From Pseudomonadota bacterium (lineage in GTDB: Bacteria; Pseudomonadota; Gammaproteobacteria; Burkholderiales; Burkholderiaceae_C): 50,067 bases of DNA. A model generated the notes under the pieces. It was not told where the DNA came from. It saw only the letters and a list, made by a program, of their open reading frames with translations, and did no database searches. How positions within the stretch are numbered: the stretch's first letter is position 1; each line of letters begins with the position of its first letter. Both the position numbers and the translations under genes were made by a program. Positions 1 through 18,501 of the stretch are shown piece after piece. Location of the stretch: NCBI GenBank assembly GCA_018241325.1, contig JAFEEB010000011.1, positions 1 through 50,067 of the forward strand, read 5' to 3'.

Positions 1-681
1 CGAGTCGTTGACGTTGATGGCGCGCATCTGCAACGTGCCCTTGGCCGACATCTCCTGCAGGCGGTGCACGCCCGTCGTCGTCTCCTCGGTCACACCCAGA
101 ATGTTTTTCAGGCGGCGGCTGTACCAGGTGGGGTCCGTCTTGAGCCTGGCCTTGATGGCGGCGTGCAGGATTTTTTCTTCTTCGCTGCCGGCCTTGCCCA
201 GCGCCTTGATGTCTTTTTCGGCGCGCGCGCCCAGGTGCATCAGCAGCGTGGCATCGCCGCCGTCGTCCAGGATCATGTTGGGGCCTTCGTGTTTGCTGCC
301 CTTGGCGCCGAACTCGAAGATGTGGTGCGTGTAGTCCCAGTAATCCGAGAGCGACTCGCCCTTGATGGCGAACACCGGCGTGCCGCTGGCGGCAATGGCG
401 GCGGCGGCGTGGTCTTGCGTGCTGAAGATGTTGCACGAAGCCCAGCGCACCTCGGCGCCCAGCGCCTCCAGCGTCTCGATCAGCACGGCCGTCTGGATCG
501 TCATATGCAGGCTGCCGGCGATGCGTGCGCCCTTGAGCGGCTGGGCCTTGGCGTATTCGGCGCGGATCGCCATCAGGCCGGGCATCTCGGTCTCGGCGAT
601 GGCAATCTCTTTGCGGCCCCAGGCGGCCAGGGACAGGTCGGCCACGGCCGAATCCACGGTGGGTTTGAGAACAGCGCTCAT
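1..681 (-). CDS. ahcY: Adenosylhomocysteinase, N-terminal part (partial)
   Basis: S-adenosylhomocysteine hydrolase, a cytosolic NAD-dependent enzyme that splits SAH to adenosine and homocysteine and so relieves product inhibition of methyltransferases. Only the first 227 codons are in the window; the gene continues past position 1. The ATG at 681 follows a GGAG about 8 bases upstream. The N-terminus reads [20 protein letters not shown] and later segments are typical of the family: [39 protein letters not shown] (substrate-binding region) and [17 protein letters not shown] (catalytic Asp region). The betaproteobacterial insert after the DDGGD block is present. Upstream lies an SAH riboswitch, so SAH itself is the expected inducer. 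The identification is very secure; the only limit is the missing C-terminus. Confidence 0.97.
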
Positions 682-752
682 GGTCTTCTCCAATCGAAGG
701 TTTCGAAAAAACCACGCTTTGGAGGGAGGGCACTCACCGCACTGCCAGCGTG

Positions 753-836
753 GGTGAGCGTCGTTGCCTTGAATGTCCGAGCCTCGCGCCCCGCGAACCC
801 GGTTTTCGGGTGGGGCACTGCAACGCTCCTCGGAAG
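753..836 (-). promoter_or_regulatory. SAH riboswitch upstream of ahcY
   Basis: On the minus strand the segment opens with CCGAGGAGCGTTGC and ends with CAACGACGCTCACC, the two conserved halves of the SAH riboswitch. CCGAG (829-833) can pair with CTCGG (777-781), and GAGCG (824-828) with CGCTC (756-760). The two pairings interleave, as expected for the known pseudoknot. A small CCCG-AAAA-CGGG hairpin fills the variable part (about 796-811). GGTGAG at 733-738 can pair with CTCACC at 753-758, which overlaps the second pairing, so this is a plausible switching hairpin. By family precedent SAH binding turns ahcY on. No covariance search was run. Confidence 0.93.
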
Positions 837-841
837 TTCGA

Positions 842-847: not shown

Positions 848-894
848 AAAAGGTTTGACGCAGCGCCTCGTTGCAAGGGCTGCTGGGGGCTGGC

Positions 895-2121
895 TCAGCA
901 GGTCGGCAACGGTTGGCTCTTGTTGATGGCGTCAACCGTGGCGAGAAAAGTCATCCAGTAGCTGGGCAGGTTGGCCCAAGGGTTGCCGCTGCCGGTAGTG
1001 GGGTTGTAGTGCAGATCAGTGACGTAGACCAAGCCGGTGTTGTTGCGCGCCGAGGCGGCGGCGCGCAACGCCTTCTGCATGTCGGCGCAGGACGCGTCGT
1101 GCACCAGCATGGCCTGCGCGCCATTGCCGCGCTGGTAAACCCAAGTGTTGCCCGGCTGCGGATCGGTCTTGAAGTAACTCACCGCCTGGCCTTCGAAGGT
1201 CGTCACCGTGTCAGCCAGCGCGGCGTAGCCCGCGTCGGGGTAGGTGCCGGGGTTACTGATGATGCGGAAGTCGGGGTATCGGCGGCGAATGTCGTTCGAG
1301 ACGGGCTGGTAGAAAGCGATCTTCCTGGGCGAGTTGTCGACCTCGTCGAGGAAGATGCCGCTGACGGCGCTGCCATAGTGGCTCAGGTAGGCATCGACGT
1401 TGGCCCGGATGTCGGCCTGCGAACGCCCGCCGTTGCCGTAGCCGGTCAGCACGTAGCCGATGAGCTTGCCGCCCTTGGCGATGAAGTCGGCGGCGGCGCT
1501 CACCAGGCCCGCGTCGGGTTTGTCGAACAGGCCATTGCTTGGGTTCAAGATGGCCGTAATCCGGACGTCCGGAAAACTCTGTTGGCCATTGCTGAGCGCC
1601 ACCCAGGGCGAATTGGCCCTGCCGGCCGAGAAATAGGCCGGCACCAGCACCTCGAGCGGCTTGGGCGGCGGGCGTAGATACAGGGTGAGCGCGGCCTTGA
1701 CCTCCGGCCGCCCGCTCACGGCCACACCGACTGCGGCGGTACCGGCGCTGGTGCCGACCAGCACAGCCAGCGCGTGCCCGTCAATGCCGGTGGCTGTGCG
1801 TGCGGGGGTAACGGTCGCCGAGGTAGCACTCAGGTCCACATAGATCTTGTCGGGAGCCGGCGCTCCGTTCAGCGTCATGCGCACGCTCAGCGGCACCGTG
1901 GCCCCCACCTCGCGCACGTTGTCGGCCGGCGTCGGACCGACGAATGCCAGCGCGATCGTTCCACCGGGCGGCAGCGAGGGTGGCGGCGCCAGCGTTGGCG
2001 ACGAAGGCGGTACCGTCACCCCGTCGTCCGACCCGTCGGAGCCGCCGCCGCAGGCGGCCAGGGTGGCGGTCACGGCGAGTAGGCAGGCCAAGGTGAAGCG
2101 GCTGCGCGAAGAAGGGGGCAT
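895..2121 (-). CDS. Lipoprotein with Ig-like and spherulin-4 (GH135-like) glycosidase domain
   Basis: Predicted lipoprotein of 408 residues. The ATG at 2121 has GGAG just upstream; an upstream in-frame start at 2145 has no such support. Residues 1-24 form a lipoprotein signal ending in LAAC (Cys24), followed by a Gly/Ser/Pro-rich linker. About residues 55-150 look like a bacterial Ig-like domain. Residues 155-408 match the spherulation-specific family 4 TIM barrel: VLVPAYFSAG, TAILNPSNG, GKLIGYVLTGYG, GIFLDEVD and FRIISNPGTYPD. In the fungal GH135 enzyme Sph3 the catalytic acids are an adjacent Asp-Glu and a later Glu; here Asp259-Glu260 and Glu310 (TTFEG) fit. Sph3 cleaves GalNAc/galactosamine polymers chemically like Pel. 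Since the gene sits 99 bp after pelG on the same strand, I infer a Pel-directed hydrolase on the cell surface or in the periplasm. The fold is fairly sure; the substrate is inference. Confidence 0.82.
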   Translation of the reverse strand: MPPSSRSRFTLACLLAVTATLAACGGGSDGSDDGVTVPPSSPTLAPPPSLPPGGTIALAFVGPTPADNVREVGATVPLSVRMTLNGAPAPDKIYVDLSATSATVTPARTATGIDGHALAVLVGTSAGTAAVGVAVSGRPEVKAALTLYLRPPPKPLEVLVPAYFSAGRANSPWVALSNGQQSFPDVRITAILNPSNGLFDKPDAGLVSAAADFIAKGGKLIGYVLTGYGNGGRSQADIRANVDAYLSHYGSAVSGIFLDEVDNSPRKIAFYQPVSNDIRRRYPDFRIISNPGTYPDAGYAALADTVTTFEGQAVSYFKTDPQPGNTWVYQRGNGAQAMLVHDASCADMQKALRAAASARNNTGLVYVTDLHYNPTTGSGNPWANLPSYWMTFLATVDAINKSQPLPTC

Positions 2122-2220
2122 GGGGTCTCCGTAGGCCACGGCCAAGGAGGCGCATTATGCACCCATGCGGGGCGGCGTGGCCGCGCGCCGTCAGGCGCGC
2201 CTGCAAGCCACCTGGGCCGG

Positions 2221-3594
2221 CTATTGCAGCATGAAAGTGCGGTACTCGAGCTGGTTGAGGCGGCGCGTGAGCAGATGCAGCCCGGTAGCCAGCGTCACCA
2301 ACTGCGCCACCGCGAAGCCGTAGCCATACAGCGGCGCGCCCCACCACAGTGTGAGGCCGGTGAGCGCCACGTTCAGCACCACGAACAGCACGCACAACAG
2401 CAGCACGGTGCGGCGCTGGTCGAGGTAGAAGAACACGTTCAACACCGCCATCACGCCGACCTGCAGGCCCGCCCCGATCACCTGCACGTGCAGCAGCGGC
2501 AGGTACAGGCGCGAGATACCCAGCACGTCAAGCACCCAGGGCCCGGCCACCATGGTCACCAGCACGGCCAGGGTCTGGATCTTGGCGATTTGGCCCAGGC
2601 CCTGCTGGATGGAGTAGACCATCTCGTCACGCATCGATTCGATGAACTGCAGCGACCCTCCGCCGCGCACAGCGTCGTAGAACTTGTCGTAGTACTCGAC
2701 GAAGTCGGTCTCGATGCGCATCAGGAACACCGCCATGCCCGGAATGATGGACAGGTAAGCCAAGAACACCGGCAGGTCGTAGATCAGCGAGGCGCGCAGG
2801 TGGCCGATGATGGGCTGCGAGGTGGGCGGAAAGAACCAGAACATGAACTTGTCGGCCCAGATGCCCAAGTTGTAGAGCAGGCCGATCGCCACCAGCGAGG
2901 GGTACAGCTTGCCCGGCTGCAGGAAATCAAAGGCGACCAGGCGCGGCGCGGCCGGAAACTCGCGCACCACCAGCAGCCACATGCCCGCCAGCAGCACGAA
3001 GTGACCCAGCACGAAGCCGCCCAGCAGGCCTTCCAGCCCCCAGGGGCGCAGCAGCAGCGAGCACACCACGATCAGCGCGTAAGCCGCGCCGAACAGGACG
3101 ACGATGGCCTTGTAGCGCTTCATGCCCGACAGCAGGATGGTCAGCATCCACACGGCACTGAGCAAGGCAAAGCCGGCCAACATCAGCAGGCGGTACAGGA
3201 GCCCCAAGCCAGGCAGCACCACGAACAGCGCCAGCGTGGCCAGCACCGCCGCTCCCAGCAGCACCAGCACCAGCAGACCATGCACGTTGGGCAAGACCTG
3301 CCGGCCTTGCTTTTCGAACAGGCGATCGGAGACAAAGCGCGTGAAAGTCAACTGCGCCAGGCCCGTGTAGATCAGACTGCACGCGACCAGGTAGGTCACC
3401 GAGGTCTGAAACTGCGTCACCAGCGTGGCCGGCTGGACCACGCTGGTGCTCAAGATGCCGATCAGCAGGATGCCGACGATCGACAGTACCCAGGGGCCCG
3501 ATCCGATCACGCCGGCGTAAGCGTAGGCCTGCACCAGGCCCAACAGCGTGTTGCGGCGCAGCAGGTGGCGCAGTTCGAATCCGATGCCGGCCAT
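2221..3594 (-). CDS. pelG: Pel polysaccharide inner-membrane protein PelG
   Basis: PelG is the multi-spanning inner-membrane component of Pel synthesis. It resembles polysaccharide transporters and forms the membrane synthase complex with PelD, PelE and the glycosyltransferase PelF. The 457-residue product matches the usual length (about 456). It opens with MAGIGFELRHLLRRNTLLG and contains around twelve hydrophobic segments. The start codon overlaps the pelF stop by one base (TGATG), implying translational coupling. It is the last canonical pel gene; the following lipoprotein gene begins 99 bp further on. No frameshift or truncation is visible. Confidence 0.95.
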   Translation of the reverse strand: MAGIGFELRHLLRRNTLLGLVQAYAYAGVIGSGPWVLSIVGILLIGILSTSVVQPATLVTQFQTSVTYLVACSLIYTGLAQLTFTRFVSDRLFEKQGRQVLPNVHGLLVLVLLGAAVLATLALFVVLPGLGLLYRLLMLAGFALLSAVWMLTILLSGMKRYKAIVVLFGAAYALIVVCSLLLRPWGLEGLLGGFVLGHFVLLAGMWLLVVREFPAAPRLVAFDFLQPGKLYPSLVAIGLLYNLGIWADKFMFWFFPPTSQPIIGHLRASLIYDLPVFLAYLSIIPGMAVFLMRIETDFVEYYDKFYDAVRGGGSLQFIESMRDEMVYSIQQGLGQIAKIQTLAVLVTMVAGPWVLDVLGISRLYLPLLHVQVIGAGLQVGVMAVLNVFFYLDQRRTVLLLCVLFVVLNVALTGLTLWWGAPLYGYGFAVAQLVTLATGLHLLTRRLNQLEYRTFMLQ

Positions 3595-5126
3595 CAGGCA
3601 ACTCCCGGAGCGTGGGCCAGGGCACGGTCATACACCCGGCGGTAGCGATCGAACATCAGGGTGTCCGTGTAATAGCGTTCGACGCGCGCCACGGCAGCCC
3701 GGCTGGCCGCCTGCCATGCGACGGGGTCGCCCAGCAGCGCCAGCGCGGCGTCGGCTAACTGCTGCGGCTGCGCGATCGGCACCACGACGCCTGAGGGGCC
3801 GAGCGCGCGGTCCTCGGCGTCCAGTCCCTCGACCAGCTGGCGGCACGAGCCGACGTCGGTGGCCACCGTCGGCACCCCCGCGGCATAGCCTTCAAGCAGC
3901 ACCAGCGGCAGCGCCTCGCTGATCGAGGACAGCACCACCAGGCCGATCTTCGGCATGAGATCTTCCACGCGCTGCATGCCCAGGAACCTGACGTGCTGCT
4001 GAAGGCCCAAGCTGCGCACCAGGTTGCGGCACTCCTCGACGTAGGTCGGGTCCTCGTCCTCGGGGCCGGCGATCCAGCCCTGGGCGTCAGGGCGTTGGTT
4101 GACCATGCGGCGCATGGCGCGGATGAAGGTCTTGATGTCCTTGATGGGCACCACCCGGCCAATCAGGCACAGTATCGGCGGCGGCTCGGCGGGTCGCTCG
4201 GCGCGCAGGGGCGAAAACCGCTCCACCCGGATGCCGTTGGGGATGCTGGCGGTGCGTTCGGCCGGTGCGCCGTCCGCGATCTGACGCTGGCGATTGGCCT
4301 CGTACAGCGCGATGATCGGGTCGGCGTGCTGGTAGCAGTAGCGGCCGATCCATTCGAAGAACTGGATCCACATCTGGCGCAGGTAAGACAGCTCTGTCGG
4401 GTCGCGCTGAAAGATGTTGCGGTTGTCGCGGATCCACTCGCTCTTGAACAGGTCGATCTTGCGCTCCTTGGTGTAGATACCGTGCTCCGAAAGAATGAGC
4501 GGCACGCCGCGCGTCTGCGCCAGCATGCCACCCAAAAGACCTGCGTAGCCGGTGGACGCGCAGTGCACCGCGCGCACGTCGATGAGCTGCTGTGCCACGC
4601 GGGCCAGCAACCACAGGGGCTGGTGCATGATGCGCACGGTCCAAAAGAAATCGACGAACGAAGGGTCGGAGCAGTGGCGACGGTAGTGTTCGCAGATCAC
4701 TTCCCAAGCGCGTCGGCTGTGCAGAAAGTCCTTCAGCTGCACCGATCCGTCCGGCTGCATCTGCTCGACGACGGCTTCGAAGGCGCGCATGGCCTGGGCG
4801 CTGATCGGGTCTTCGGCGAGGGCGTCGAGCAGGCGTTGCACCAGCGCATGTCCGACAGGGTCGCCAGCTCGGGCCAGCGGCTCCTCGTAGCTGCTGCCGT
4901 TCGCATACAGAAAGTGCTCTTCGAAATGCACCACGTTGGCGGGCAGCTGGTATTTGAAGTCTCCGTAGTCTTCGCGCCTGCTGCCCAGAAAGACGATGGC
5001 GAAGCGGTGTTCAGGGTAGGCGTGGATGATCTGGTTGATCCAGCCCGAAACTCCGCCTCGGACGTAGGGATATGTGCCCTCCAGCACCAGCGCGATGTCG
5101 GCCGACTGAGCCTTGGGGTGGGTCAT
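3594..5126 (-). CDS. pelF: Pel polysaccharide glycosyltransferase PelF (GT4)
   Basis: Cytosolic GT4-family retaining glycosyltransferase that polymerises Pel from UDP-sugar, by family precedent UDP-GalNAc. The product has 510 residues, close to the usual 507. The N-terminus carries the PelF signature ALVLEGTYPYVRGGVSGW. The C-terminal Rossmann half has PNGIRVERFSPL and the EX7E motif at Glu404/Glu412 (SEALPLVLLEGYAAG). I chose the ATG at 5126 because it overlaps the pelE stop as ATGA and matches family length; the longer open frame upstream lies inside pelE. The 1-base overlap with pelG points to coupled translation. Confidence 0.96.
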   Translation of the reverse strand: MTHPKAQSADIALVLEGTYPYVRGGVSGWINQIIHAYPEHRFAIVFLGSRREDYGDFKYQLPANVVHFEEHFLYANGSSYEEPLARAGDPVGHALVQRLLDALAEDPISAQAMRAFEAVVEQMQPDGSVQLKDFLHSRRAWEVICEHYRRHCSDPSFVDFFWTVRIMHQPLWLLARVAQQLIDVRAVHCASTGYAGLLGGMLAQTRGVPLILSEHGIYTKERKIDLFKSEWIRDNRNIFQRDPTELSYLRQMWIQFFEWIGRYCYQHADPIIALYEANRQRQIADGAPAERTASIPNGIRVERFSPLRAERPAEPPPILCLIGRVVPIKDIKTFIRAMRRMVNQRPDAQGWIAGPEDEDPTYVEECRNLVRSLGLQQHVRFLGMQRVEDLMPKIGLVVLSSISEALPLVLLEGYAAGVPTVATDVGSCRQLVEGLDAEDRALGPSGVVVPIAQPQQLADAALALLGDPVAWQAASRAAVARVERYYTDTLMFDRYRRVYDRALAHAPGVA

Positions 5127-6124
5127 GACGGGTTCCAGAAGTCGATCACCGGACGCAGGCGCGGCAGGGCGCTCCACTGGTCGAGGCTCTGCATCAGCGC
5201 TTGCGTCTGCGCGAAGTCTCGCCGTCCGAAGCACAGTTGCGCCTGGTAGGGCAGCACCCGCGTGGCCGGCAGGCCCAGCGCACGCGCCTGCACATAGGCC
5301 TGCTCGGCCTCGTCGGCGTGTCCGGTTTCGTCCAGCAGGCGACCCCGGCGCAGGTGCAGCGCGGCGTTACCAGGTTGCTGCTGCAGCACCAGGTTGCAAT
5401 AGCGCAGGGATTCGCGGATGGCGTGCGTGCGCAGGTCGCCCTGCACCAAGCCCTCGTAGACCTGCTCCCAATAGAGGTCGGACAGGCGATGCGCGGTGTG
5501 CAATGCCTGCTCGCTGCCTTCGGCGGCGTCCTCGAGGACATTGAGCTCGATGCCGATGGCACGGTTGAGGCGCTTTTCGAGGTTGTCGAGCATGCCGTAG
5601 GCTAGCAGGCGCAACTCGTCGCTGGGGTCGCTGAGCGCCCCGCGCAGCAAGGGCGCAGCCGTGCGGCCGGTAACGTGCTGGAGCGCCGCCATTGCGCGCA
5701 TGCGCACCGACACCGGCACCGCAGTCTTGCTCAGGAACGTGCGCAGACCAGCGTGGCGGAACTGGCTTTCACGACGTTGCGCCTGATCGAACTCGGGCAG
5801 CTGCAGGGATTCGAAATCGACCACCTGGCGACGACCGTGGTAGCGCGCCAGGATCGGAAACGCCGCCAGCACGCCCACAAAGCCCAGCACCGGAATCGCG
5901 TAGGTAAACCCGGCCATGAGCGCCAGCGTAGCCCAGCGCGGCTGCGCCACACGCTGGGAAATGAGCGGCAGCAATGCCAGCGACAGCAGCACGCTAGCCA
6001 GCGCGTGCACCACCAGGTAGCTAGCCAGCGCCGTGTCGGAATGCTCGGCCAGCAGGCGCGCGCTACTCCAAGCGCCGACCTCCAGCGCCAGCGCCGTCAG
6101 GCCGAACTTGAGGTCAAGCAGCAT
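5123..6124 (-). CDS. pelE: Pel biosynthesis protein PelE
   Basis: PelE is an inner-membrane protein with a cytosolic helical, TPR-like region, thought to scaffold the PelD/E/F/G synthase complex. The 333-residue product starts MLLDLKFGLTALALEVG and has about three hydrophobic N-terminal segments (roughly residues 5-25, 32-55 and 65-90). These are followed by a soluble helical region with repeats such as NAALHLRRGRLLDETGHADE and AEQAYVQARALGLPAT. The start overlaps the pelD end by 11 bases and the stop overlaps pelF by 4 bases. It is weakly conserved in sequence, so order and architecture carry much of the call. Confidence 0.9.
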   Translation of the reverse strand: MLLDLKFGLTALALEVGAWSSARLLAEHSDTALASYLVVHALASVLLSLALLPLISQRVAQPRWATLALMAGFTYAIPVLGFVGVLAAFPILARYHGRRQVVDFESLQLPEFDQAQRRESQFRHAGLRTFLSKTAVPVSVRMRAMAALQHVTGRTAAPLLRGALSDPSDELRLLAYGMLDNLEKRLNRAIGIELNVLEDAAEGSEQALHTAHRLSDLYWEQVYEGLVQGDLRTHAIRESLRYCNLVLQQQPGNAALHLRRGRLLDETGHADEAEQAYVQARALGLPATRVLPYQAQLCFGRRDFAQTQALMQSLDQWSALPRLRPVIDFWNPS

Positions 6125-7511
6125 GGGCCAGGGCGTGGATACGCTCCACGGTCCGCGTGGGCTGGGCGCCGTCCAGCGGCAGCACGTGCGGGAAGACGCC
6201 AGCCTCTGCCAGCGACTGCTGGCTCTTTTGCTGCAGCCAGTCCTCCAACCGGGCGATGTACCCCTCCGCGGACGTACCGTCGCCCATGGGCATCAGCAGC
6301 GCCAGCACCTGGCGCGTGGGGGTGTCAATCAGCCAAGTTTCGTCCAGTTCGCGTCGCAGGCGCAAGATCTGTTGCGCCAAATCCTGTGCCCGCGCGGCAG
6401 GTTGCAATTCGAGTGCCACGACGACGCTGGGCACATCGGCGCTGGCCTGAAGGTGGGCCAAACGCTGGATTTCGAAGGCAAACCGGGTCGGACAGTCGGG
6501 GCAGCGCTGCACGATGGGTTGCGCCAGCGCATTCATCGACAGGCCGTCGGTGTAGTAGCCCAGCAGCAACTTCAAGGTCTGGAGGTTTTCGGTGTGCAGT
6601 GCGAAGAACGACATGTCCTGCACCAGCAGCAGACCGTACACCTCGTCCGCCAGATCGAGCAGCGGCGCTGCCACCAGGTAGCGGGAGCTCTGCTGCGCTG
6701 TGACCGCCTGGCTGATATGGCACAGCTTGCGTGTTTCAAGCGCCTGGCGTACCAGCGGGTCGTCCGCGTGCAGACCCTGGTAGACCCCCAACACGGCGGC
6801 CGGCTCGGCGACCAACTGTCCTTCGACCACTGAGTGCAGGGCGGCGCAATCGAGCTGGCAGTATTGCGCCAGCAGCCGTAGCAGAGCCTGCGCGCCCTGT
6901 TCGCCACTGGCGCCGTCGCCCCCGGTGTCTCGCAGAGTCGCCAAGGCGTCGTGCATGGACATGGGACGGCCGATCAATTCGCGCCCGAGGCGGTCGTGCG
7001 ACAGGCGCAACAGGTAGTGCTGACGTACCACGTGATCCAGGCGTTGGTCAAGGTACATCTGCACCGTCTCGGCGCGGCGCGTTCGGGTGCGCCAGAAACT
7101 GGAAAACTCGCCGGCGACAAACACCAGGATCAGCCCACCCAGGAAGTACATCTGGGGGAAGGACCCCAGGCGCCCCGGATTGAGTGCCCACCATGCGGCC
7201 AACAGCACCGCGGAGCCGCCCAGTCCGGCCAGCGGGCCATAGCGCAAGGCCAGCAGCAGAGGCGCGAGCCAGGCCCACGGAAACTCGCCGGTGACCTGCA
7301 GCGGGTCCTGCCGCGCCCAGAGGTAGCCGAGGGCGACAGCCAGTAGCGGCAGCGCGATGATTTCGGCGACCATCGCCACGGGGTGGCCAGCCGTTGTAGT
7401 CAGTTTGCCCAGCAGATGGGGAGGCAGGCGCAAGGCGGCACCGGTCCCGCGGAGGACGCCGTCACCGCCGATCTGACGCGGGGTGCTGAAGGTCTGTGCG
7501 GACGTGGCCAT
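6114..7511 (-). CDS. pelD: c-di-GMP receptor of Pel synthesis, PelD
   Basis: Inner-membrane cyclic-di-GMP receptor that activates Pel polymerisation. The 465-residue product is near the usual 455. Four hydrophobic segments lie at about residues 45-140. A coiled region and a GAF domain (about 175-320) come next, then a degenerate GGDEF domain. The inhibitory-site motif that binds c-di-GMP is intact as RELD at about residues 387-390, so post-translational control by c-di-GMP is predicted. I took the ATG at 7511, eight bases after the pelC stop, because the open frame upstream encodes an Arg-rich sequence overlapping pelC. The stop overlaps pelE by 11 bases. Confidence 0.94.
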   Translation of the reverse strand: MATSAQTFSTPRQIGGDGVLRGTGAALRLPPHLLGKLTTTAGHPVAMVAEIIALPLLAVALGYLWARQDPLQVTGEFPWAWLAPLLLALRYGPLAGLGGSAVLLAAWWALNPGRLGSFPQMYFLGGLILVFVAGEFSSFWRTRTRRAETVQMYLDQRLDHVVRQHYLLRLSHDRLGRELIGRPMSMHDALATLRDTGGDGASGEQGAQALLRLLAQYCQLDCAALHSVVEGQLVAEPAAVLGVYQGLHADDPLVRQALETRKLCHISQAVTAQQSSRYLVAAPLLDLADEVYGLLLVQDMSFFALHTENLQTLKLLLGYYTDGLSMNALAQPIVQRCPDCPTRFAFEIQRLAHLQASADVPSVVVALELQPAARAQDLAQQILRLRRELDETWLIDTPTRQVLALLMPMGDGTSAEGYIARLEDWLQQKSQQSLAEAGVFPHVLPLDGAQPTRTVERIHALAHAA

Positions 7512-7519
7512 GGCCTGGC

Positions 7520-8071
7520 TCAGCGGGCATCGGCGAGGCCGGATTGCAGCAACTCGCGGATCAACTTCTGGGCCACGGCCGACAGTGCTTGGCGACTCCA
7601 GCCGCTCTGGCCGCCAGTGCCGCTCCACAGCGTGTCGCCGGTGGCCACGTCCAGGATACTGAGCGTCACACCTGCGGCGGGCTCGCCGTCGACGCCGACT
7701 TTGTAGCGCCACTCGTCCACCGATCCAGCCAGCGCATAGCGGATTTTCTGCTCGCGCGCCCAAGTCAGCGCGTCGTCCATGCGGGTGCTATCGGCGGCGC
7801 CAAACAGCGCTTCTTTCTGCGTGCTGGCCGGGGTGCGGCGCACCGTGCCCACGCCCTGCGCCTGCAGCAACGCGTGCGCAATGGCCTCGGCACGGTTGCC
7901 GGCCATCGGGGTTTCGGTGTGGTTGGCGAAGGGCAGCACCACCCAGGAGGCATGGCGCTCCAGGCTGGGCGGCGTGCCACGGTCGATGGTGGAGCACGCG
8001 GCCAGCACCATGAGAGCGCCGGTGGCAACCAGCATGGACAAGCGGCGTGCGATCGAGTGATGAAGGCGCAT
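7520..8071 (-). CDS. pelC: Pel outer-membrane-associated lipoprotein PelC
   Basis: PelC is a lipoprotein that forms a ring at the inner face of the outer membrane and guides the cationic polymer to the PelB pore. The 183-residue product begins at the ATG at 8071 with GGAG 7-8 bases upstream. Residues 1-26 are a lipoprotein signal ending VLAAC. The body contains WVVLPFANHTETPMAGNRAE and ends in the conserved region with SGTGGQSGWSR. Slightly longer than the P. aeruginosa protein (172). It sits 17 bp downstream of pelB and 8 bp before pelD. Confidence 0.93.
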   Translation of the reverse strand: MRLHHSIARRLSMLVATGALMVLAACSTIDRGTPPSLERHASWVVLPFANHTETPMAGNRAEAIAHALLQAQGVGTVRRTPASTQKEALFGAADSTRMDDALTWAREQKIRYALAGSVDEWRYKVGVDGEPAAGVTLSILDVATGDTLWSGTGGQSGWSRQALSAVAQKLIRELLQSGLADAR

Positions 8072-8088
8072 GGGGTTTCTCCTCGGGA

Positions 8089-11000
8089 CTAGAAACGAAG
8101 TTGATAGGTCAGTTGCACATTGCGCGTGAAGCCCAGGGACTGGATGCCGGACTTGGCAATGCCCCAGGTGAAGCTCAGATGGTCGGCGCCCAGCACAGTG
8201 CCGGCCACGCCCAGACGCAGGTCGTAGCCGGCCCCCAGTTCGCTGTGCCAGGTACGGCTGACACTGGCGTAGGGCCGGATCGCGCGCGTGTAGTCCTGCT
8301 CGTAGGCCATATTGGTCGACAAGCGCACACCATAGAAACGGAAATTGCCGGGCAGGAAGTAGTCGATGCCCATGTCGCCGCCGTCGGCGGGCACGAAGCG
8401 CTGCTGGAAGCGCGCGCCCTGCCCGCCCAGATAGAAGGGGTAGCGGCGCTCGAAGCGGTGGCTGGACCAGAAGGCGCCCACTTCCCACGTCGGTGTGTCC
8501 TGGCGCAAGGCGTGCGTGTATTCGATGGCGGTGTGACGGCCGCGGCCCACCTCTGCGCCGGTCTGCACGCGGTAGCGCTCGGCCCATTGCGACAGCACAA
8601 ACTGGTCCTGGCGCGTGGGCTGAAAGCGCAGATGGGCGGCCGCGCGCGTCTTCATGCCGCCCAAGCGCAGCGCCAGGCTTTCCTCACTGGGCAAGCGCCA
8701 GCCGAGTTCGCCGCGCACCGAGAAACTGCTGTTCAGGCGTTGCTCGTGCTCGACCCACACGGGCGTGGTGTTGGCGTAGCCGCGGCGGCTGGCGGCGCGC
8801 AACTGGGTCAGGCCGTCGCGGTGCCGCCATTTGAGCAGAATGGATGCGATGTTTTCGTTGGGGGCGCTGGCCAGCAGATCGGGCGCGGTCACGTGGCGGC
8901 GAATGGTGCTCCACTGAAAGTCCAGCGACACGCGCGGATTGAGGGCGAAGTGCAGGCCGACGTCGGTCTGGTTCTCGCTCGCGGCACCCAGATAGGTGTG
9001 CTGGACCTTGGTGCCGGCGTGGTTGCCGAAGCTCAGCAGGTTTTCGGTCAGTTGCTGGTGCAGCGGGTCATCATTGGGCTGATCGAGCTGCGCGTTGAAC
9101 GCCGCGCTCTGCGCCAGCCGAACGTCGTCCGCCCCGCTTGCCGCGCTGATGCGGTCGTAGCGCGGCAGGCGCTCGTCGTATTTCTCCAGCAACTGGCCGG
9201 CCGTGGCCTTGTCCTCCTGGCCCAGGGCGGCGCCGATTTCGGCCCACAGCGGGCCGTTCGCGCGGGTCGCGCGGCTGCGGGCGTACTGCTGCCACAGGAA
9301 GCCGCGCTCGGCGTTGTACTGCCCCGCGTCCTGGAACCAGCTGATCGCCAGTTCCGCCGCGGCGTCCGAGTAGTCGCCTTTGGCGTCCCGGTCCATGCGC
9401 ATCAGCTCGCGCAGCACGTCGCGCGCCGGATCGCCGGGCTGCTGCTGCATCAACAGCCGCGCACGGGCGACGCGCCGCGTGGCATCCAGCCCTTCTTCGG
9501 TGAGCCATTTCTGGCGTGCCTGAGCCCGCGTGAGCGGCTTGGCACCTGACCCCTGGCGCTCCGGCTGCCCTTGTTGCAACAGCAGTTGGCGGCGCAGGCG
9601 CCAGGCGCGGTCAGCCTCCTGGTTTTCTTCCAGCGCGTCGGCGTAGTTCATCAGCCAGAGAAAGTCATTCTCGTGCTCGGCCCGGTGCGGCGTGAGATAG
9701 CGGTCGAGCGCCACCTGGGGCAGCGACAAGGCCTGGTAGGCCGCGGCCAGCACCTCGTGCAGCTCGTCGCTGCCGCTCCAAGCCTGCTCGTGCAGCGCCA
9801 AGAGCTGGCGGATCGCGGACGCGTCATTGCTGTCGATCAACAGCCACAGCAAGGCGTCGCGCGAGTCGCTGGACTGGGGGTCGATCCGCAGCGCCTCCTC
9901 GTAGTATTGCCGCGCTTGCGCGAGGCGCCCCGTTTCATGGTAGTAGGCGCCCACCAAGCGCAGGAACAGGGGCGAGCGGCGCAGTGCGACCAGCGAGTGC
10001 CGGGCGGCGTCCGGCGCGGGGTCGGCCAGGGCCAGCGCGCGGGCAAACTCATGCCATTGCTTGTGGGTGGAAAACAAGGTCAGGGCTTCGATCAGGTGCC
10101 GCTCATGATCGAGCCGCTGCCATGCCAGCAGCGCCACCCGTGCCGCCTCCAGCGGCTGCTTGGGGCGCAGCAGGCGGATCAGGGCGTCGAAGTCGCCGAC
10201 CTCGGCATCGGGGGTGGCGACCAGTTTGCCGTAGGCGGCGATGGCCAGCGCGTTGTGGTCCCGGTTCTCGGCCAATTCGCCCGTCATGCGCCACAGGTCG
10301 CTGGCCGCCGCGGGCGATGTCGAGGTTTTGTCCTGCACGGCCTGCAGCCATTGCAAACCCTGCTCGGGCTGGCCCTGCGTGAGCGCCAGCACGGCCGCCT
10401 GCATCGCGTGCTCGGGCGTGAGCTGGCTCGGGTCGGCCAGCAGCTTGCGCCAGGTTTGCAGCGCGAGTTCGGATTGCCCGGCGCGCTCGGCCAGTTGCGC
10501 CTGCAGCACCATGGCGGCGGGGCTGCGGGCGTGCTGGCGCAGGTAGTCGAGGGCGGGCTGGGGCTCGCCCAGGCGCTCCTGCGCATCGACCAGTTCGCGG
10601 ATCAGCTTCAGGTCGTCCGGACGGCTTTGCAGCTGGTGGCGCAGGGCCTGAACCAGGGCGGCATCATCGAACAAGCCAGGGGCGAGCCGCAGCACGGCCT
10701 GCCAGGCAGCCTCTTTTTGCGTGGCGCGCGCGATTTCCAGCCAGTTCTGCAGCGCGATGCCGGGGCGCTCGGTCCATTCCGACACCTGCGCCAGGCGTTC
10801 GCGCCACATCATGTCGGAGGGGTTCTTGCGCACGGCGTCGTTGGCGAGCTTCCAAGCGTCCTGAAGTTTGCGCTTGCCCAGCAGCGCGGCGTATTCGTCC
10901 TGCAGCAATTCGGCCTGCGTCTGCTGCGCCTGCTGGCGCATCGCCGGGTCGGGCGACTCAAGCATCGGCTTCAAGGTGGCACTGGCACCGGCGACGTCGC

Positions 11001-12441
11001 CATGCAGGATCTGACGCTGCATCAGCAAGCGGCGCACCCGCATGTTGCCCGGCTCGTCGCGCAGCCAGTCGCGCAAGGTCTGCATCACGGCGGCATCGTC
11101 CAACGGGGCGGACGCGAGGCGCTGCACGCCTTGCCAGGCGGTCTTGCTTTGCGTTGCGCGGGCCACCTGTAGCCAATTTTCCAGGGCCACGCCGGGGCGC
11201 TGCGTCCATTCGGACACCTGGGCCAGACGCTCGCGCCACACCATGTCGCCGGGGTTCTGGCGCACGGCGGCGCTGGCCACGGCCCAGGCGTCCTCGAGCT
11301 TGCGGTTTTCCAGAAACACCTGATAGCCCAGGGTGTAGGTCTTGTCGTCAAACGGCAGCGTCGGCAGATCGGGCGCCGGCGGGGCATTGTCGGCCACGGC
11401 CAGCATCAGGCGCCGGGCGGGGTGCATCAGCAGGCTGGCGCCGTCGTCGAACTCGGACGATTCAGGGCGGGGCACCGGCTTGGGATGCCAGGCGACGGGT
11501 CGTAGCATGAAGTCCTGAATGGCGCTGGCCTGCTGGATCGCCTTCCAGTGCCGCTCCAAGCTCACGTGCAGCAGGCGACGCACGTAGCGTTCGGCCACGT
11601 CGGGCCGGCCAGCGGCCCGCGCCAGTTCGATCAGCAGGGTCAGGGTCTGCGGGTCGTTGGCCAGCGGACCCAGCTCGCGCTCGGCCAGCTCCAGCGCCGC
11701 CTTGGGCTTGTTGCCTGAGCGCAGCGCTGCCACCGCTGCGCCGTAGTAGCGCTTGGCCTCGCCGGCATCGGGCGTGCTCTTGCGCGCCTCCAGGTAGAGC
11801 TGCGCGCAGCCTTCATAGTCGCCCTGACCCAGCGCCTGCTTGGCGGAGTTTTCATAGTACTGGGCGGCTTCGCGCGGGTCCTTGGGGGCCTCGTCGCGGG
11901 TGATCTTGAGAACGATTTCGGGCGCGTCGAACTCGCTGGCCAGCACGGCGAGGCGGCTTTGCCGCTCGATCGGCCAAGACTCCTGCGCCAACCGGTGGAT
12001 GCTCTGGCGCAGCGCACCGACCAGCGCCACGCGCCGGGGGGTGTTGGTTTCGGGCGTGTCCTGATACTCGCGGTACAGCAGTTCGCCTTGCGTCCACAGG
12101 GCCTCCTTGCGCAGCGTCGGGTCGGGGGAATCGAGTGCGGGCTTCAGGGTGGCGTGGGCACCGACGGTGTCGTCGCGGGCGATCTGGTGCTGCGCCAGCA
12201 ACAGACGCAGGTGGGGGTTGTCGGGGTCGCTGCGCAGCAGGTTGAGCAGGTAGTTGCTGGACAACTCGGTCTCGCCGGCGCTGACCAGCCGTCGCTCGAT
12301 GTCCTGGCGCGGGTACAGCAGCCACAAGGCCCCGCAGACCGCGGCCGAGAGCACGCCGATCAGCCACGGGGGCGCGAGGACGGGGCGCGCGGCGCCGCTC
12401 TCAGCGCTGTGGGCAGAGGATCTGGATCTCAGCGGCGGCAT
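8089..12441 (-). CDS. pelB: Pel outer-membrane export protein PelB (TPR + beta-barrel), enlarged
   Basis: PelB exports Pel: an inner-membrane anchor (about residues 26-43), a long periplasmic TPR superhelix and a C-terminal 16-strand-type porin (about 1140-1450) ending in Phe. The product is about 1450 residues, clearly longer than the roughly 1190 of P. aeruginosa. Part of the excess is a tandem TPR duplication with a 144-residue period: the segment from Lys381 (KLEDAWAVASAAVRQNP, then WRERLAQVSEWTQRPG) recurs from Lys525 (KLQDAWKLANDAVRKNP, then WRERLAQVSEWTERPG). A shorter block (SPDPTLRK near the N-terminus, SPDPAMRQ at about 465) is also repeated. The chosen ATG at 12441 overlaps pelA by 41 bases and has no clear ribosome-binding site, so the exact start is uncertain. 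Confidence 0.93.
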   Translation of the reverse strand: MPPLRSRSSAHSAESGAARPVLAPPWLIGVLSAAVCGALWLLYPRQDIERRLVSAGETELSSNYLLNLLRSDPDNPHLRLLLAQHQIARDDTVGAHATLKPALDSPDPTLRKEALWTQGELLYREYQDTPETNTPRRVALVGALRQSIHRLAQESWPIERQSRLAVLASEFDAPEIVLKITRDEAPKDPREAAQYYENSAKQALGQGDYEGCAQLYLEARKSTPDAGEAKRYYGAAVAALRSGNKPKAALELAERELGPLANDPQTLTLLIELARAAGRPDVAERYVRRLLHVSLERHWKAIQQASAIQDFMLRPVAWHPKPVPRPESSEFDDGASLLMHPARRLMLAVADNAPPAPDLPTLPFDDKTYTLGYQVFLENRKLEDAWAVASAAVRQNPGDMVWRERLAQVSEWTQRPGVALENWLQVARATQSKTAWQGVQRLASAPLDDAAVMQTLRDWLRDEPGNMRVRRLLMQRQILHGDVAGASATLKPMLESPDPAMRQQAQQTQAELLQDEYAALLGKRKLQDAWKLANDAVRKNPSDMMWRERLAQVSEWTERPGIALQNWLEIARATQKEAAWQAVLRLAPGLFDDAALVQALRHQLQSRPDDLKLIRELVDAQERLGEPQPALDYLRQHARSPAAMVLQAQLAERAGQSELALQTWRKLLADPSQLTPEHAMQAAVLALTQGQPEQGLQWLQAVQDKTSTSPAAASDLWRMTGELAENRDHNALAIAAYGKLVATPDAEVGDFDALIRLLRPKQPLEAARVALLAWQRLDHERHLIEALTLFSTHKQWHEFARALALADPAPDAARHSLVALRRSPLFLRLVGAYYHETGRLAQARQYYEEALRIDPQSSDSRDALLWLLIDSNDASAIRQLLALHEQAWSGSDELHEVLAAAYQALSLPQVALDRYLTPHRAEHENDFLWLMNYADALEENQEADRAWRLRRQLLLQQGQPERQGSGAKPLTRAQARQKWLTEEGLDATRRVARARLLMQQQPGDPARDVLRELMRMDRDAKGDYSDAAAELAISWFQDAGQYNAERGFLWQQYARSRATRANGPLWAEIGAALGQEDKATAGQLLEKYDERLPRYDRISAASGADDVRLAQSAAFNAQLDQPNDDPLHQQLTENLLSFGNHAGTKVQHTYLGAASENQTDVGLHFALNPRVSLDFQWSTIRRHVTAPDLLASAPNENIASILLKWRHRDGLTQLRAASRRGYANTTPVWVEHEQRLNSSFSVRGELGWRLPSEESLALRLGGMKTRAAAHLRFQPTRQDQFVLSQWAERYRVQTGAEVGRGRHTAIEYTHALRQDTPTWEVGAFWSSHRFERRYPFYLGGQGARFQQRFVPADGGDMGIDYFLPGNFRFYGVRLSTNMAYEQDYTRAIRPYASVSRTWHSELGAGYDLRLGVAGTVLGADHLSFTWGIAKSGIQSLGFTRNVQLTYQLRF
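10420..11310 (-). repeat. Tandem in-frame duplication inside pelB (432-bp period)
   Basis: Two copies of a TPR-coding segment are offset by exactly 432 bases; equivalent Lys codons begin at 11301 and 10869. The DNA is still very similar, for example gcgccacaccatgtcg near 11232 and gcgccacatcatgtcg near 10800. Outer limits are approximate; the best similarity spans about 95 codons of each 144-codon unit. Confidence 0.75.
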
Positions 12442-15220
12442 CGGGCAGCTTGAACTGTTGCACGGAGGCAGGGGTCTGCGCCGCGGGGCGCAGGGCGGAA
12501 AGCGGGCGCTGATTGGCGCGCACCTGGCAGGCCTGGACATTGGCCAGGGCGAATTCCAGCGGCACGTGGCCCTTCAGAGTGAATCGCACTTGCCAACCGT
12601 CTCCCCCGACCTGCCAGTCATCCAGGCGGGCGTTGGCTTCATAAAGGTAGGGCGTGGTGGCCGCCTGCTCGCCGGTTTGCAGCAACGCCGCCGGGCCGCT
12701 CAGATGGACGTACAGGCCCTCGCTGCCGGGACGCGAACCCGCCACGCCCTGGCTGCGTGCCAGTTGCGGCTGCCCCAGCGCGGCGGGCAGGCGCACGGTG
12801 CGCAGGGCCCCGTTGCTGCTGCGCAGGCGCCAGCCCGAACCGTCGCGGGCGATGGCGTAGTCGAAGAAGTCCTGCGCCTTGGTGATGAATTCGGAGGTCG
12901 CCACGGGGTACAGGGGCTGTGCCAGCGCCCAGTCGTACACCTTCTTCAAGGCGCGCAGCGAGGCGGGCTTGCTGGCCGAATACACGTGGTAGTAGATGCC
13001 CACGGACTTGAGGCGCCGGGGCGCGCCCGTCATTTCGAAGGTTTCGATGACGCGCTCGTAGCCATAGTACGGCCCCGTCCACAGATTGGTGTAGATGTTT
13101 TCGTTGGTGATCGGCGCGTAGATTTGCAGGTAGCCCCCCTTGCGGATCCCCAGCGGCGCCACCGCGGTGAGCGAGGGGTTGGAGCGGGTGATGAAGGTGT
13201 CGCCGCCGTTGATGTTGAGCAGCCCGGCGCGGTAGGTGATCTCCAGCGCCTTGGCATTGGGCATGGTGTCGCCGGACCATTGCAGGATCCGGACCGGTTT
13301 GTCCTTGGGCGCCAGATGCTCGTCGATGTAGCGGGTGGAGCCCACGATTTCGCGCTCCAGGTTGATGGTGTAGCCCGGAATGTGCAGGGAATAGGCGGTG
13401 TCGCCGGCGTCCGCCGGCTGCGCACGCCGCAGCGCGGGATCCCAGACGAAGGGGTGCGAATACGTGTGGCTGCCCACTTCGATGTAGGGCAGGCGGAACA
13501 TCTGGCGCGCCAGCGCTTCGAGCTGCGGGCTTTCCTTGGGATAGAGGCCGTGCGGAGCGACTTCGGCCTCGATGACCGACATCGCCAGGGGAATGCGGTA
13601 TTTCTCGAAGACGTCCTTGAGCAGCACCTGCGCCGCCAGGGGGCTGCCCGCGAATTCGGCGCGCGAGGCAAAGCCGTCGCCATCCACATGGGCGGTCAGC
13701 AGGCGGCGCCCGTTTTCGGTCGTGGTGTCGGGGACGGGAATCGGGGGCAGGCGCAGCGTTTGCTGCAACAGGGCGAAGGGATCGACGATCCAGCGTGTCT
13801 GCTGCGTGCCGGGAATCTCGGCGATCACGTTGGGGTCGAGGATGAAGCCGCCCCAGGGCGTAACGGCGCCGCCCAGGAAGGTGCGGTCGCGCTGGTCGCG
13901 CAACTCGATCAGCGCTTGCGACTGCCGGGCCATGTCCGGCGCGAGGCGCACCGCGCCGGTCTGCAGTTCCGGCCGCGGCGGCGAGGTTTCGAAACCCATG
14001 ATGGGCGCCAGCCGGGTCTGCCGCAGGGCGCCCTGCGGCTTGGCCCCATCGGCAACCAGCCCCAGGCTGCGTTCGAGCGGCCTGTCCGGGTCCATGCCCC
14101 AGTCACCCAGGATGGCCAGCGGCATGCCGTCCCGGATGCGCGCCTGCAGCCACCGGCTCAGGGCGGGGCGCCGTTGCGCCGGGATGAAGCCGGAAAACCA
14201 GGTGACGACGCCGGCGTAGCGGTCCCGCCCGATGCGCTCCGGCAGGCTCTCGCGCACGTCCGCGTAGTCCGTCACGAAGCCCATGTGATCGAGCGGCATC
14301 TGCAGAAACCGGTGCGGCTCGCTCTCGTTGAGGGTCGGCGATTCGTCGCCGTCGTAGAGCACCAGCACGCGGCGCGGCACGGCTTCGATGCTGCCGACGC
14401 CGATGGTGGAGAGATCGGCATCCGTCACCCAAGGGATGAATCCGTCCTGCCGGATCTTGTCGGCCGTGGCGCGGGTGAGTTCCCGATCCTGGGGGGCGAC
14501 GTAGTCGATCACCAGCACCGGCAGGCCGTCGCGCTGCTGCACGGTGTGCAGTTGCTGCAGCAGCCATTGACGGTGTTCGGCCGGGACTTCCTCGTAGCGA
14601 CGCGCTTTGGCGTTCCATTGCCGGTAGAGCGACTCGGCGGCGACCATCTGGACTTTGTCACGCACCCGAGGGAGAACCTCGAAACCCCGATTCAGAACGA
14701 GCTTGATGCCGGGAAAGCGCTGGTGCAGCGTCTCGATCACGCGCACCAGGCCTTGCTGCTGGGCCTGTTCGTCGAAGCCTTTAGCCAGGCGGTAGGAGTC
14801 CAGCGTGTCGAGAAAAAAGCCGCGATAGCCCTGCTGCCACAGCGGCTGCACCACGCGGCTGGCAAAAAAATCGGCCCAGCCGGGGGTACTCAGGTCGATG
14901 ACGTCGGACTTCCAGTCGGGGTTGTGCGCGAACTTCCAAGCGGGCGGGATGTCGGGTTCGTAGGCGCGCGACGGCAGCACCTCGCCCACCGACGCGTAGG
15001 CATAGATTTGCGTGGTGGGCTGCAGGGCGTCGGGCTTGCCGATGTCGTGGTCCGGGTCGACAACCACCAGGTCGAACGCGCGGAAGTCACTCAGCGGAAT
15101 GCCGCTGCCGTAATAGAGCGCCACAGCTGGCATGGCGGCCTGCGCGCCGCTGGCCAGCAGCAAGCCGGCCAGCAGGCAGACCAAGCGCCTGCGCAGTTGT
15201 GAGACAAGACCTAAAACCAT
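12401..15220 (-). CDS. pelA: Pel hydrolase/deacetylase PelA
   Basis: PelA is the periplasmic bifunctional Pel enzyme: an N-terminal glycoside hydrolase (GH166) and a C-terminal-half polysaccharide deacetylase that exposes amines on the polymer. The 939-residue product is near the usual 948. Residues 1-28 form a Sec signal ending AQA. The hydrolase catalytic Glu is Glu196 (VAAESLY). Deacetylase metal and catalytic residues are Asp513 and Asp515 (HVDGDGF) and His585 and His589 (VGSHTYSHPF). They are offset by exactly 15 from those reported for the P. aeruginosa protein, so both activities look intact. The ATG at 15220 is chosen because it gives a clean signal peptide. A 105-bp gap separates it from the CotH-like gene; TACAAT at 15266-15271 is a weak -10 candidate without a good -35. 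Confidence 0.96.
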   Translation of the reverse strand: MVLGLVSQLRRRLVCLLAGLLLASGAQAAMPAVALYYGSGIPLSDFRAFDLVVVDPDHDIGKPDALQPTTQIYAYASVGEVLPSRAYEPDIPPAWKFAHNPDWKSDVIDLSTPGWADFFASRVVQPLWQQGYRGFFLDTLDSYRLAKGFDEQAQQQGLVRVIETLHQRFPGIKLVLNRGFEVLPRVRDKVQMVAAESLYRQWNAKARRYEEVPAEHRQWLLQQLHTVQQRDGLPVLVIDYVAPQDRELTRATADKIRQDGFIPWVTDADLSTIGVGSIEAVPRRVLVLYDGDESPTLNESEPHRFLQMPLDHMGFVTDYADVRESLPERIGRDRYAGVVTWFSGFIPAQRRPALSRWLQARIRDGMPLAILGDWGMDPDRPLERSLGLVADGAKPQGALRQTRLAPIMGFETSPPRPELQTGAVRLAPDMARQSQALIELRDQRDRTFLGGAVTPWGGFILDPNVIAEIPGTQQTRWIVDPFALLQQTLRLPPIPVPDTTTENGRRLLTAHVDGDGFASRAEFAGSPLAAQVLLKDVFEKYRIPLAMSVIEAEVAPHGLYPKESPQLEALARQMFRLPYIEVGSHTYSHPFVWDPALRRAQPADAGDTAYSLHIPGYTINLEREIVGSTRYIDEHLAPKDKPVRILQWSGDTMPNAKALEITYRAGLLNINGGDTFITRSNPSLTAVAPLGIRKGGYLQIYAPITNENIYTNLWTGPYYGYERVIETFEMTGAPRRLKSVGIYYHVYSASKPASLRALKKVYDWALAQPLYPVATSEFITKAQDFFDYAIARDGSGWRLRSSNGALRTVRLPAALGQPQLARSQGVAGSRPGSEGLYVHLSGPAALLQTGEQAATTPYLYEANARLDDWQVGGDGWQVRFTLKGHVPLEFALANVQACQVRANQRPLSALRPAAQTPASVQQFKLPDAAAEIQILCPQR

Positions 15221-15325
15221 CCCTGAGTGTTCTCTTTTGTGATTTGTTTCAAGAAAACCGCGCCAATTGTATCTCGATGTAGAAAACACTGTGGTTGGCG
15301 GCGATCAGCCCAGCCACTCAGACGT

Positions 15326-17131: not shown

Positions 17132-17187
17132 GGGCGGATGGGATCCTCTCTGGAAACGCTTTTTTTCTGAGAGTATCAAAAATGGAG

Positions 17188-17216
17188 ATTATCCGCCATA
17201 CTCTTGTCGAATGCAA
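17188..17216 (-). promoter_or_regulatory. Candidate sigma-70 promoter for cotH-like gene and pel operon
   Basis: On the minus strand TTGCAT (17211-17216) and GATAAT (17188-17193) are separated by 17 bp, a reasonable sigma-70 match about 57 bp before the CotH-like ATG. A 7-bp inverted repeat, agagtat (17170-17176) and atactct (17198-17204), brackets the -10 box and could be an operator. Start and control are inferred. Confidence 0.45.
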
Positions 17217-17317
17217 CGTTATGTTTCAAAGACGCCAAGTATCGACGCCACGCGCTTGCCGCACAATCACCAGCATTCGGCGGTTGGCCTGGCGCGAAAA
17301 CCAGGCCGAATGGTTCG

Positions 17318-18346: not shown

Positions 18347-18501
18347 AGCGCGACGAGGCAAGCGCACGCTTGTGCAAGCCCAGCAACTGCCCGCATGGGT
18401 GTGGATCGTAAAATCGGCGCCTTATCATCCGGTCGCCCGCCCGCGCGACGGGGCCAATTTGCCATGCCGCGCACGGCGCAGCGCTTTGCCCATCATCACC
18501 C

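Follow-up and report, generated by a model that had tools for sequence, protein, structure and literature searches.

A GH135-type spherulin-4 lipoprotein encoded beside pelG is a candidate accessory Pel hydrolase in Comamonadaceae

The gene that follows pelG in the DNA analyzed here (the window, 50,067 nucleotides, one whole contig of a 3.82 Mb draft genome) encodes a spherulin-4 lipoprotein which, judged from sequence comparison, appears to be a real and recurrent member of the pel operon in Comamonadaceae and a candidate accessory Pel hydrolase, apparently undescribed so far. The protein is probably an outer-membrane GH135-type lipoprotein that, by analogy with the fungal enzyme Sph3, would act as an endo-acting alpha-1,4-N-acetylgalactosaminidase on the cell's own Pel, and it would be made together with the Pel machinery. 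The initial annotation of this DNA had located the gene exactly, at 895-2121 (the open reading frame lies on the minus strand), and had named it a candidate second Pel hydrolase; that proposal gains support from the GH135-type barrel and its acids, from Sph3 as the closest solved structure, from recurrence beside pelG and from the intact motifs of PelA. The features of the locus are listed below in window positions.

749-837, minus strand: SAH riboswitch, 3' of the spherulin gene and upstream of ahcY
848-18505, no strand: block missing from a same-genus genome (G900) between ahcY and prfC, from alignment with that genome
895-2121, minus strand: spherulin-4 (GH135-type) lipoprotein gene, 408 aa, read as terminal in the pel operon; ATG start at 2121, final stop-codon base at 895
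934-1653, minus strand: spherulin-4/GH135 (beta/alpha) barrel with Asp259, Glu260 and Glu310, from PF12138, conservation and Foldseek
1672-1956, minus strand: predicted beta-sandwich (Big_1/Ig-like) spacer, residues ~56-150, from a Big_1 match below the cut-off and a confident model
2050-2121, minus strand: signal peptide and lipobox LAAC with Cys24, then a Gly-rich stretch, from sequence
2221-3594, minus strand: pelG (PF16933, E 2.4e-158)
3594-5234, minus strand: pelF, start codon unsettled (NF038011, E 4.9e-237)
5123-6124, minus strand: pelE, from its operon place, a weak TPR match below the cut-off and a match to the gene that relatives carry in this position
6114-7763, minus strand: pelD, true start probably inside the ORF (PF16963, E 7.5e-38)
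7520-8587, minus strand: ORF holding pelC (C-terminal ~185 codons), no Pfam match, kept between pelB and pelD in relatives
8089-12540, minus strand: pelB, TPR-type matches below the cut-off, place conserved in relatives
12401-15289, minus strand: pelA, hydrolase and deacetylase (PF03537, E 3.3e-21; full-length P. aeruginosa PelA 9cgy, E 3.9e-189)
15326-17179, minus strand: CotH-kinase gene, flanked by pelA and the divergent epimerase
17204-18346, plus strand: divergent NAD-dependent epimerase (UDP-sugar 4-epimerase type), upstream of pelA in relatives too

The assignment to spherulin-4, for which a profile search had been proposed, is confirmed by PF12138 (E 9.4e-37, 127.2 bits against a cut-off of 30.2), whose match spans residues 157-396 and covers profile positions 1-239 of 239. 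This gene carries the sole PF12138 match in the 3.82 Mb draft genome, and none of 14 control genomes has one. A Pfam search of the protein gave no match to PF03537 (GH114/GH166) at E 0.01, while the PelA of the same operon matches that family. The lipoprotein call made earlier stands, as the translated ORF contains the lipobox LAAC-GGG, in which the residue after the Cys is Gly and not Asp. Under the +2 rule, outer-membrane lipoproteins carry no Asp after the lipobox Cys, and the Gly at this position points to an outer-membrane location. The Ig-like linker of the initial annotation holds only in part: by sequence it is weak, with a Big_1 match at residues 84-141 that falls below the cut-off (E 0.0017, 18.9 bits against 34.9), but a separate beta-sandwich is present in the structural model.

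We generated this model with AlphaFold2 from 75 sequences, comprising the window protein and proteins of the locus survey described below; the same 75 of 89 sequences served for the tree and the conservation counts, 14 rows, mostly near-copies, being left out. The model has a mean pLDDT of 91.9 and a pTM of 0.85, and predicts a beta-sandwich at residues ~56-150 (block pLDDT 94-98) followed by the barrel. The best solved relative by sequence is Sph3 of Aspergillus clavatus, 5c5g (E 5.8e-11, phmmer against solved structures), and the comparison with Sph3 suggested earlier returned it as the closest solved fold as well: Foldseek ranks 5c5g and 5d6t (Sph3 with GalNAc) first and second, with E 2.5e-15 and 5.4e-15, TM over the target of 0.73 and 0.74, and a probability of 1.00 for 5c5g, followed by a third hit at E 1.7e-09 and rmsd 21. 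In the fold alignment Sph3 and the window protein share 21% identity. In the phmmer alignment, counting along the chain pairs Asp259, Glu260 and Glu310 with the DE and E of Sph3, and positions 116, 117 and 172 of the 5c5g chain were likewise equated by counting with Sph3 Asp-166, Glu-167 and Glu-222, which are given as its catalytic acids (PMC10485009); PMC12054363 prints the acids as Asp196/Glu222. Across the alignment of spherulins Asp259 is kept in 75/75 rows, and Glu260 and Glu310 in 73/75 each, the rows lacking Glu260 or Glu310 (L111, L128 and L136) all falling outside the Comamonadaceae clade, within which there is no exception. Profile, fold and alignment thus agree on the spherulin-4 barrel with catalytic-type acids that the initial annotation had described, and by predicted fold, profile and acids the protein belongs to the GH135/spherulin-4 type.

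On the minus strand the gene order is pelA, pelB, pelC, pelD, pelE, pelF, pelG and the spherulin gene, which starts 99 nt 3' of pelG on the same strand and which, from this arrangement, we take to be the final pel operon gene. A simple sigma-70 scan, which other promoter types would escape, found no promoter-like site on 700-2400. The 99 nt gap after pelG and the lack of a sigma-70-like site together suggest that the gene is co-expressed with pel, and pelG and the spherulin gene are probably co-transcribed; for the same two reasons, the independent control of Pel release or dispersal envisaged earlier for a separate hydrolase is disfavoured. Because the SAH riboswitch stands between the spherulin gene and ahcY, ahcY has its own leader. 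The riboswitch upstream of ahcY is also present in G900 and G778, two same-genus genomes.

PelA has a hydrolase domain of its own, as had been noted and as its PF03537 match and intact motifs bear out. The LDT, ES and H-I/V-DGDG motifs are intact in 9/9 PelA proteins examined, seven from operons with an adjacent spherulin gene and two from operons without one. Glu218 is the catalytic base of PelA, and its change abolishes secreted Pel (PMC9894940); a count along the chain assigns this residue to the ES motif, and PMC12054363 prints the acids of the hydrolase domain as Asp160/Glu223. A role for the spherulin as substitute for a lost PelA hydrolase was rejected on these 9/9 PelA, and the lipoprotein is, on the predicted integrity of those motifs, an addition to the PelA hydrolase and not a replacement for it.

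Recurrence beside pelG was examined at 78 loci, obtained by keeping, out of 208 confirmed spherulin stretches, the 80 most similar to the spherulin query, a selection that over-represents kin of the window. With the Pel proteins of the window as queries, PelG was found at 23/78 of these loci and lies directly upstream of the spherulin gene on the same strand in 23/23, with more of the pel operon visible where the contig reaches; the neighbourhood survey called for at the outset therefore finds recurrence, within Comamonadaceae and relatives. Hosts of pel-adjacent loci include Paenacidovorax, Paracidovorax, Acidovorax, Giesbergeria, Simplicispira and Xylophilus. The estimated gap between pelG and the spherulin gene is 10-103 nt in the 22 loci with a placeable start, and two tandem spherulin genes occur in 10/23 PelG-bearing loci (L068, L073, L077, L084, L085 and L089-L093). 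Complete operons, with divergent epimerase, pelABCDEFG and spherulin, are present in six genomes (L144-L149), with two spherulin copies in L144. Among the pel-adjacent proteins, 32/33 carry a lipobox with Gly after it, L088 alone lacking a lipobox, and 33/33 have the Asp-Glu motif; the spacer is absent from the pel-adjacent copies of two genomes (G767 and G876), which have a short linker only. The same-strand place next to pelABCDEFG is conserved across genera and restricted to Comamonadaceae and relatives.

The remaining 55/78 loci comprise 10 of Comamonadaceae type not seen beside pel and 45 other spherulins. Among the former, the contig of L066 starts 170 nt before the match, and in Delftia the spherulin gene lies ~17 kb from pelG on the opposite strand. 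Outside the Comamonadaceae clade 0/45 loci show PelG within the available flanking sequence, several contigs being short, and a general link of the spherulin-4 family to pel was rejected on this count. One of the 45, from a Pirellula MAG (L117), has a PF03537 GH114-type domain (30.7 bits, 4206-4985, plus strand) ~5 kb upstream of the spherulin, another pairing of two galactosaminidase-type families, and its weak PelA-like match is this GH114-type domain. A loose pattern finds a PEP-CTERM-like tail in 26/45 of these proteins (within L098-L143 except L103), 21 of which were judged genuine by eye; a Pfam scan of two of the 45 gave a PEP-CTERM match in one, L098. PEP-CTERM systems go with exopolysaccharide, and envelope anchoring may be a wider theme of bacterial spherulins.

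Co-occurrence with PelG was counted in genome samples that overlap the locus survey (L103/G204, L069/G896, L082/G133 and L094/G093 are shared) and are not independent of it. At order level PF12138 occurs in 12/399 genomes and PelG in 43/399, and 11/12 PF12138 genomes also have PelG (Fisher p 7e-11, kinship ignored), while 32/43 PelG genomes lack a PF12138 match. In four of the 11 genomes with both, the spherulin gene is directly after pelG; in six it is far away or on another contig; and in the eleventh, apparently a Delftia (G133), it is on the contig of pelG, ~17 kb off and on the other strand. The family-level sample of 190 genomes has PF12138 in 20 and PelG in 25, of which 24 are over the cut-off; 14 genomes have both, and in six of them the spherulin is directly after pelG. 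Among the 24, 10 lack any PF12138 match and 15 lack a member of the lipoprotein clade, membership being assigned in genomes by score (at least 240 bits). PelG is present in 9/11 genomes with a clade member, and the two without it (G845 and G941) share one genus. At phylum level PF12138 was found in 9/398 genomes, six from the family of the window and three from outside the order, a single one of which carries PelG, on a different contig. Direct succession of pelG and spherulin is seen in G000, G171, G204, G377, G767, G876 and G896, partly the same organisms as in the locus survey.

Three side observations concern the surroundings of pel. In G794 the PelG match is split (C5:144970-145692 and C5:212013-212597, ~67 kb apart) with PF12138 elsewhere on the contig, which suggests a disrupted pel locus. 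A scan of the gene next to pelG in 4 of 16 pel loci without the spherulin there met no standard alternative but four mutually unlike genes (AbrB-type, beta-CASP, FAA hydrolase and AAA). CotH was rejected as a constant pel partner, as it occurs in 5/62 PelG genomes and was seen beside pel in the window only, one of the five (G159) being too fragmented to judge adjacency.

In a quick tree, all 27 pel-adjacent rows and nine non-adjacent ones form one clade of 36/75 rows (SH-aLRT 100), and the adjacency label needs 6 changes on the tree but 22 when shuffled, a comparison inflated by near-copies. Our preferred reading of the tree is one old pel-spherulin association whose linkage was lost later. 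The two spherulin copies of Paracidovorax fall in two separate clades, while in Xylophilus ampelinus the two copies group as nearest neighbours; duplication therefore took place more than once. Neither PelG nor PF12138 has a match in G778 or G900, the same-genus genomes of the family sample. G900 has ahcY and prfC ~250 bp apart and aligns to window positions 1-791, 818-847 and then 18506-18953, with 80 bp against the 17,658 bp of the window between. Because this absent block spans the spherulin gene, which ends at 895, the gene lies inside a 17.7 kb block with pel, CotH and the epimerase, and the block comes or goes with pel, spherulin gene included. G778 carries ~5.5 kb of other genes at the ahcY-prfC site, an ABC transporter set among them.

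Pel is a partly deacetylated alpha-1,4 GalNAc/GalN polymer (PMC12022489, PMC9135694) and the likely substrate of the lipoprotein. Both Sph3 and the PelA domain belong to the retaining endo-alpha-1,4-N-acetylgalactosaminidases (PMC10485009), Sph3 being specific for GalNAc-containing polymer (PMC11356417), and both Sph3 and the GH166 PelA domain disrupt Pel-dependent aggregates of Streptococcus intermedius (PMC12345266). By analogy with Sph3, we infer endo action and a preference for acetylated stretches. In the proposed mechanism, PelA (GH166 and deacetylase) would cut and deacetylate the polymer in the periplasm, and the spherulin barrel would cut still-acetylated Pel at or near the outer membrane, from which the Gly-rich tether and, in the window, also the beta-sandwich spacer would distance it. 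Fully acetylated polymer is the stated preference of Sph3 and partly deacetylated polymer that of GH166 (PMC12054363), so an outer-membrane GH135 enzyme would cut acetylated stretches that PelA leaves. Such cutting might set chain length and the share of cell-bound versus released Pel, or clear polymer stuck in export. The fungal galactosaminogalactan cluster encodes an epimerase, a synthase, a deacetylase, a GH135 enzyme and a hydrolase for deacetylated polymer (PMC11356417), and the function set at the pel locus of the window equals it, a likeness of functions for which no shared descent is claimed. A bolder extension, which we put forward tentatively as possible, is that the Comamonadaceae pel locus is an independently assembled counterpart of this five-function cluster, whose GH135 lipoprotein takes part in outer-membrane Pel maturation and shares the substrate with PelA according to acetylation state.

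A rather doubtful alternative, which differs from the main reading in role and not in substrate, is that the lipoprotein is needed for Pel production and frees polymer jamming synthesis or export, release and dispersal not being its job. Galactosaminogalactan synthesis depends on Sph3, which is proposed to prevent clogging (PMC12054363, PMC11356417), and the fixed operon place of the gene would suit such a duty; against it, PelA already supplies a hydrolase, and Pel loci persist without the spherulin, as in the 15/24 and 10/24 family-level PelG genomes counted above. It is improbable that the enzyme serves attack on, or scavenging of, galactosamine polymers made by fungi or other bacteria, its pel linkage being secondary: spherulin-4 genes without nearby PelG do occur in other phyla, and G845 and G941 carry a clade member without PelG in the genome, but the repeated placement after pelG, the single clade and the shared pel block would be left unexplained. 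Less probable again is a non-catalytic role in which the lipoprotein binds Pel and keeps it attached to the cell; the lipid anchor and the modelled spacer would suit such a role, but the almost invariable retention of the acids argues against it. A passenger gene unlinked to Pel is very improbable, for although non-adjacent members exist, adjacency is kept where clade proteins have diverged to 40-48% identity with that of the window, and the gene has been tandemly duplicated in place. A hydrolase acting on the cell's own Pel thus remains the reading that we prefer.

To our knowledge, the one described Pel hydrolase of P. aeruginosa is the PelA domain, which forms one protein with the deacetylase. 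A separate lipid-anchored GH135 enzyme in a pel operon would, if true, make cutting and deacetylation genetically separable. The literature searched holds no record of the native polymer of any bacterial GH135 enzyme; the locus of the window suggests one and makes the question testable, and the diverged, duplicated natural versions are candidate biofilm-cutting enzymes. The initial annotation knew of no description of such a gene within a pel operon, and our search of the open-access literature likewise found no report of GH135 there, though a mention could exist in the 2015 Sph3 paper or in Le Mauff 2019; the word spherulin is absent from the main text of PMC7112168, PMC12345266 and PMC7112194. 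Published Gram-positive pel loci do have separate hydrolases, epimerases and CotH genes alongside (PMC7112168, PMC12345266), CotH beside pel in streptococci and clostridia (PMC7112168). What is apparently undescribed is thus a GH135-type lipoprotein ending a Gram-negative pel operon, separate Pel hydrolases beside Gram-positive pel being known.

Four known systems bear comparison. PelAH of B. cereus ATCC 10987 (BCE_5582) is likewise encoded by a separate hydrolase gene beside a pel operon and disrupts Pel-dependent biofilms, but it is predicted to resemble the PelA hydrolase domain, is Gram-positive and divergently transcribed, and accompanies an operon whose PelA lacks that domain (PMC7112168). 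SIR_1591 of Streptococcus intermedius is a predicted extracellular hydrolase beside a Gram-positive pel operon that disrupts Pel-dependent aggregates; it differs in being a TIM barrel with DUF4832, not described as spherulin-4 (PMC12345266). P. aeruginosa PelA (GH166 and deacetylase) is a Pel-processing enzyme also encoded here as pelA, and differs from the spherulin lipoprotein in being periplasmic, of another GH family and equipped with two catalytic domains. Sph3 of Aspergillus, founder of GH135 (5c5g, 5d6t), shares the barrel and the DE and E acids, is also membrane-tethered, and its gene accompanies those that make an alpha-1,4 GalNAc/GalN-containing polymer; it is fungal, however, acts on galactosaminogalactan and is held by a transmembrane segment, whereas the window protein has a lipid anchor (PMC11356417 for the fungal enzyme).
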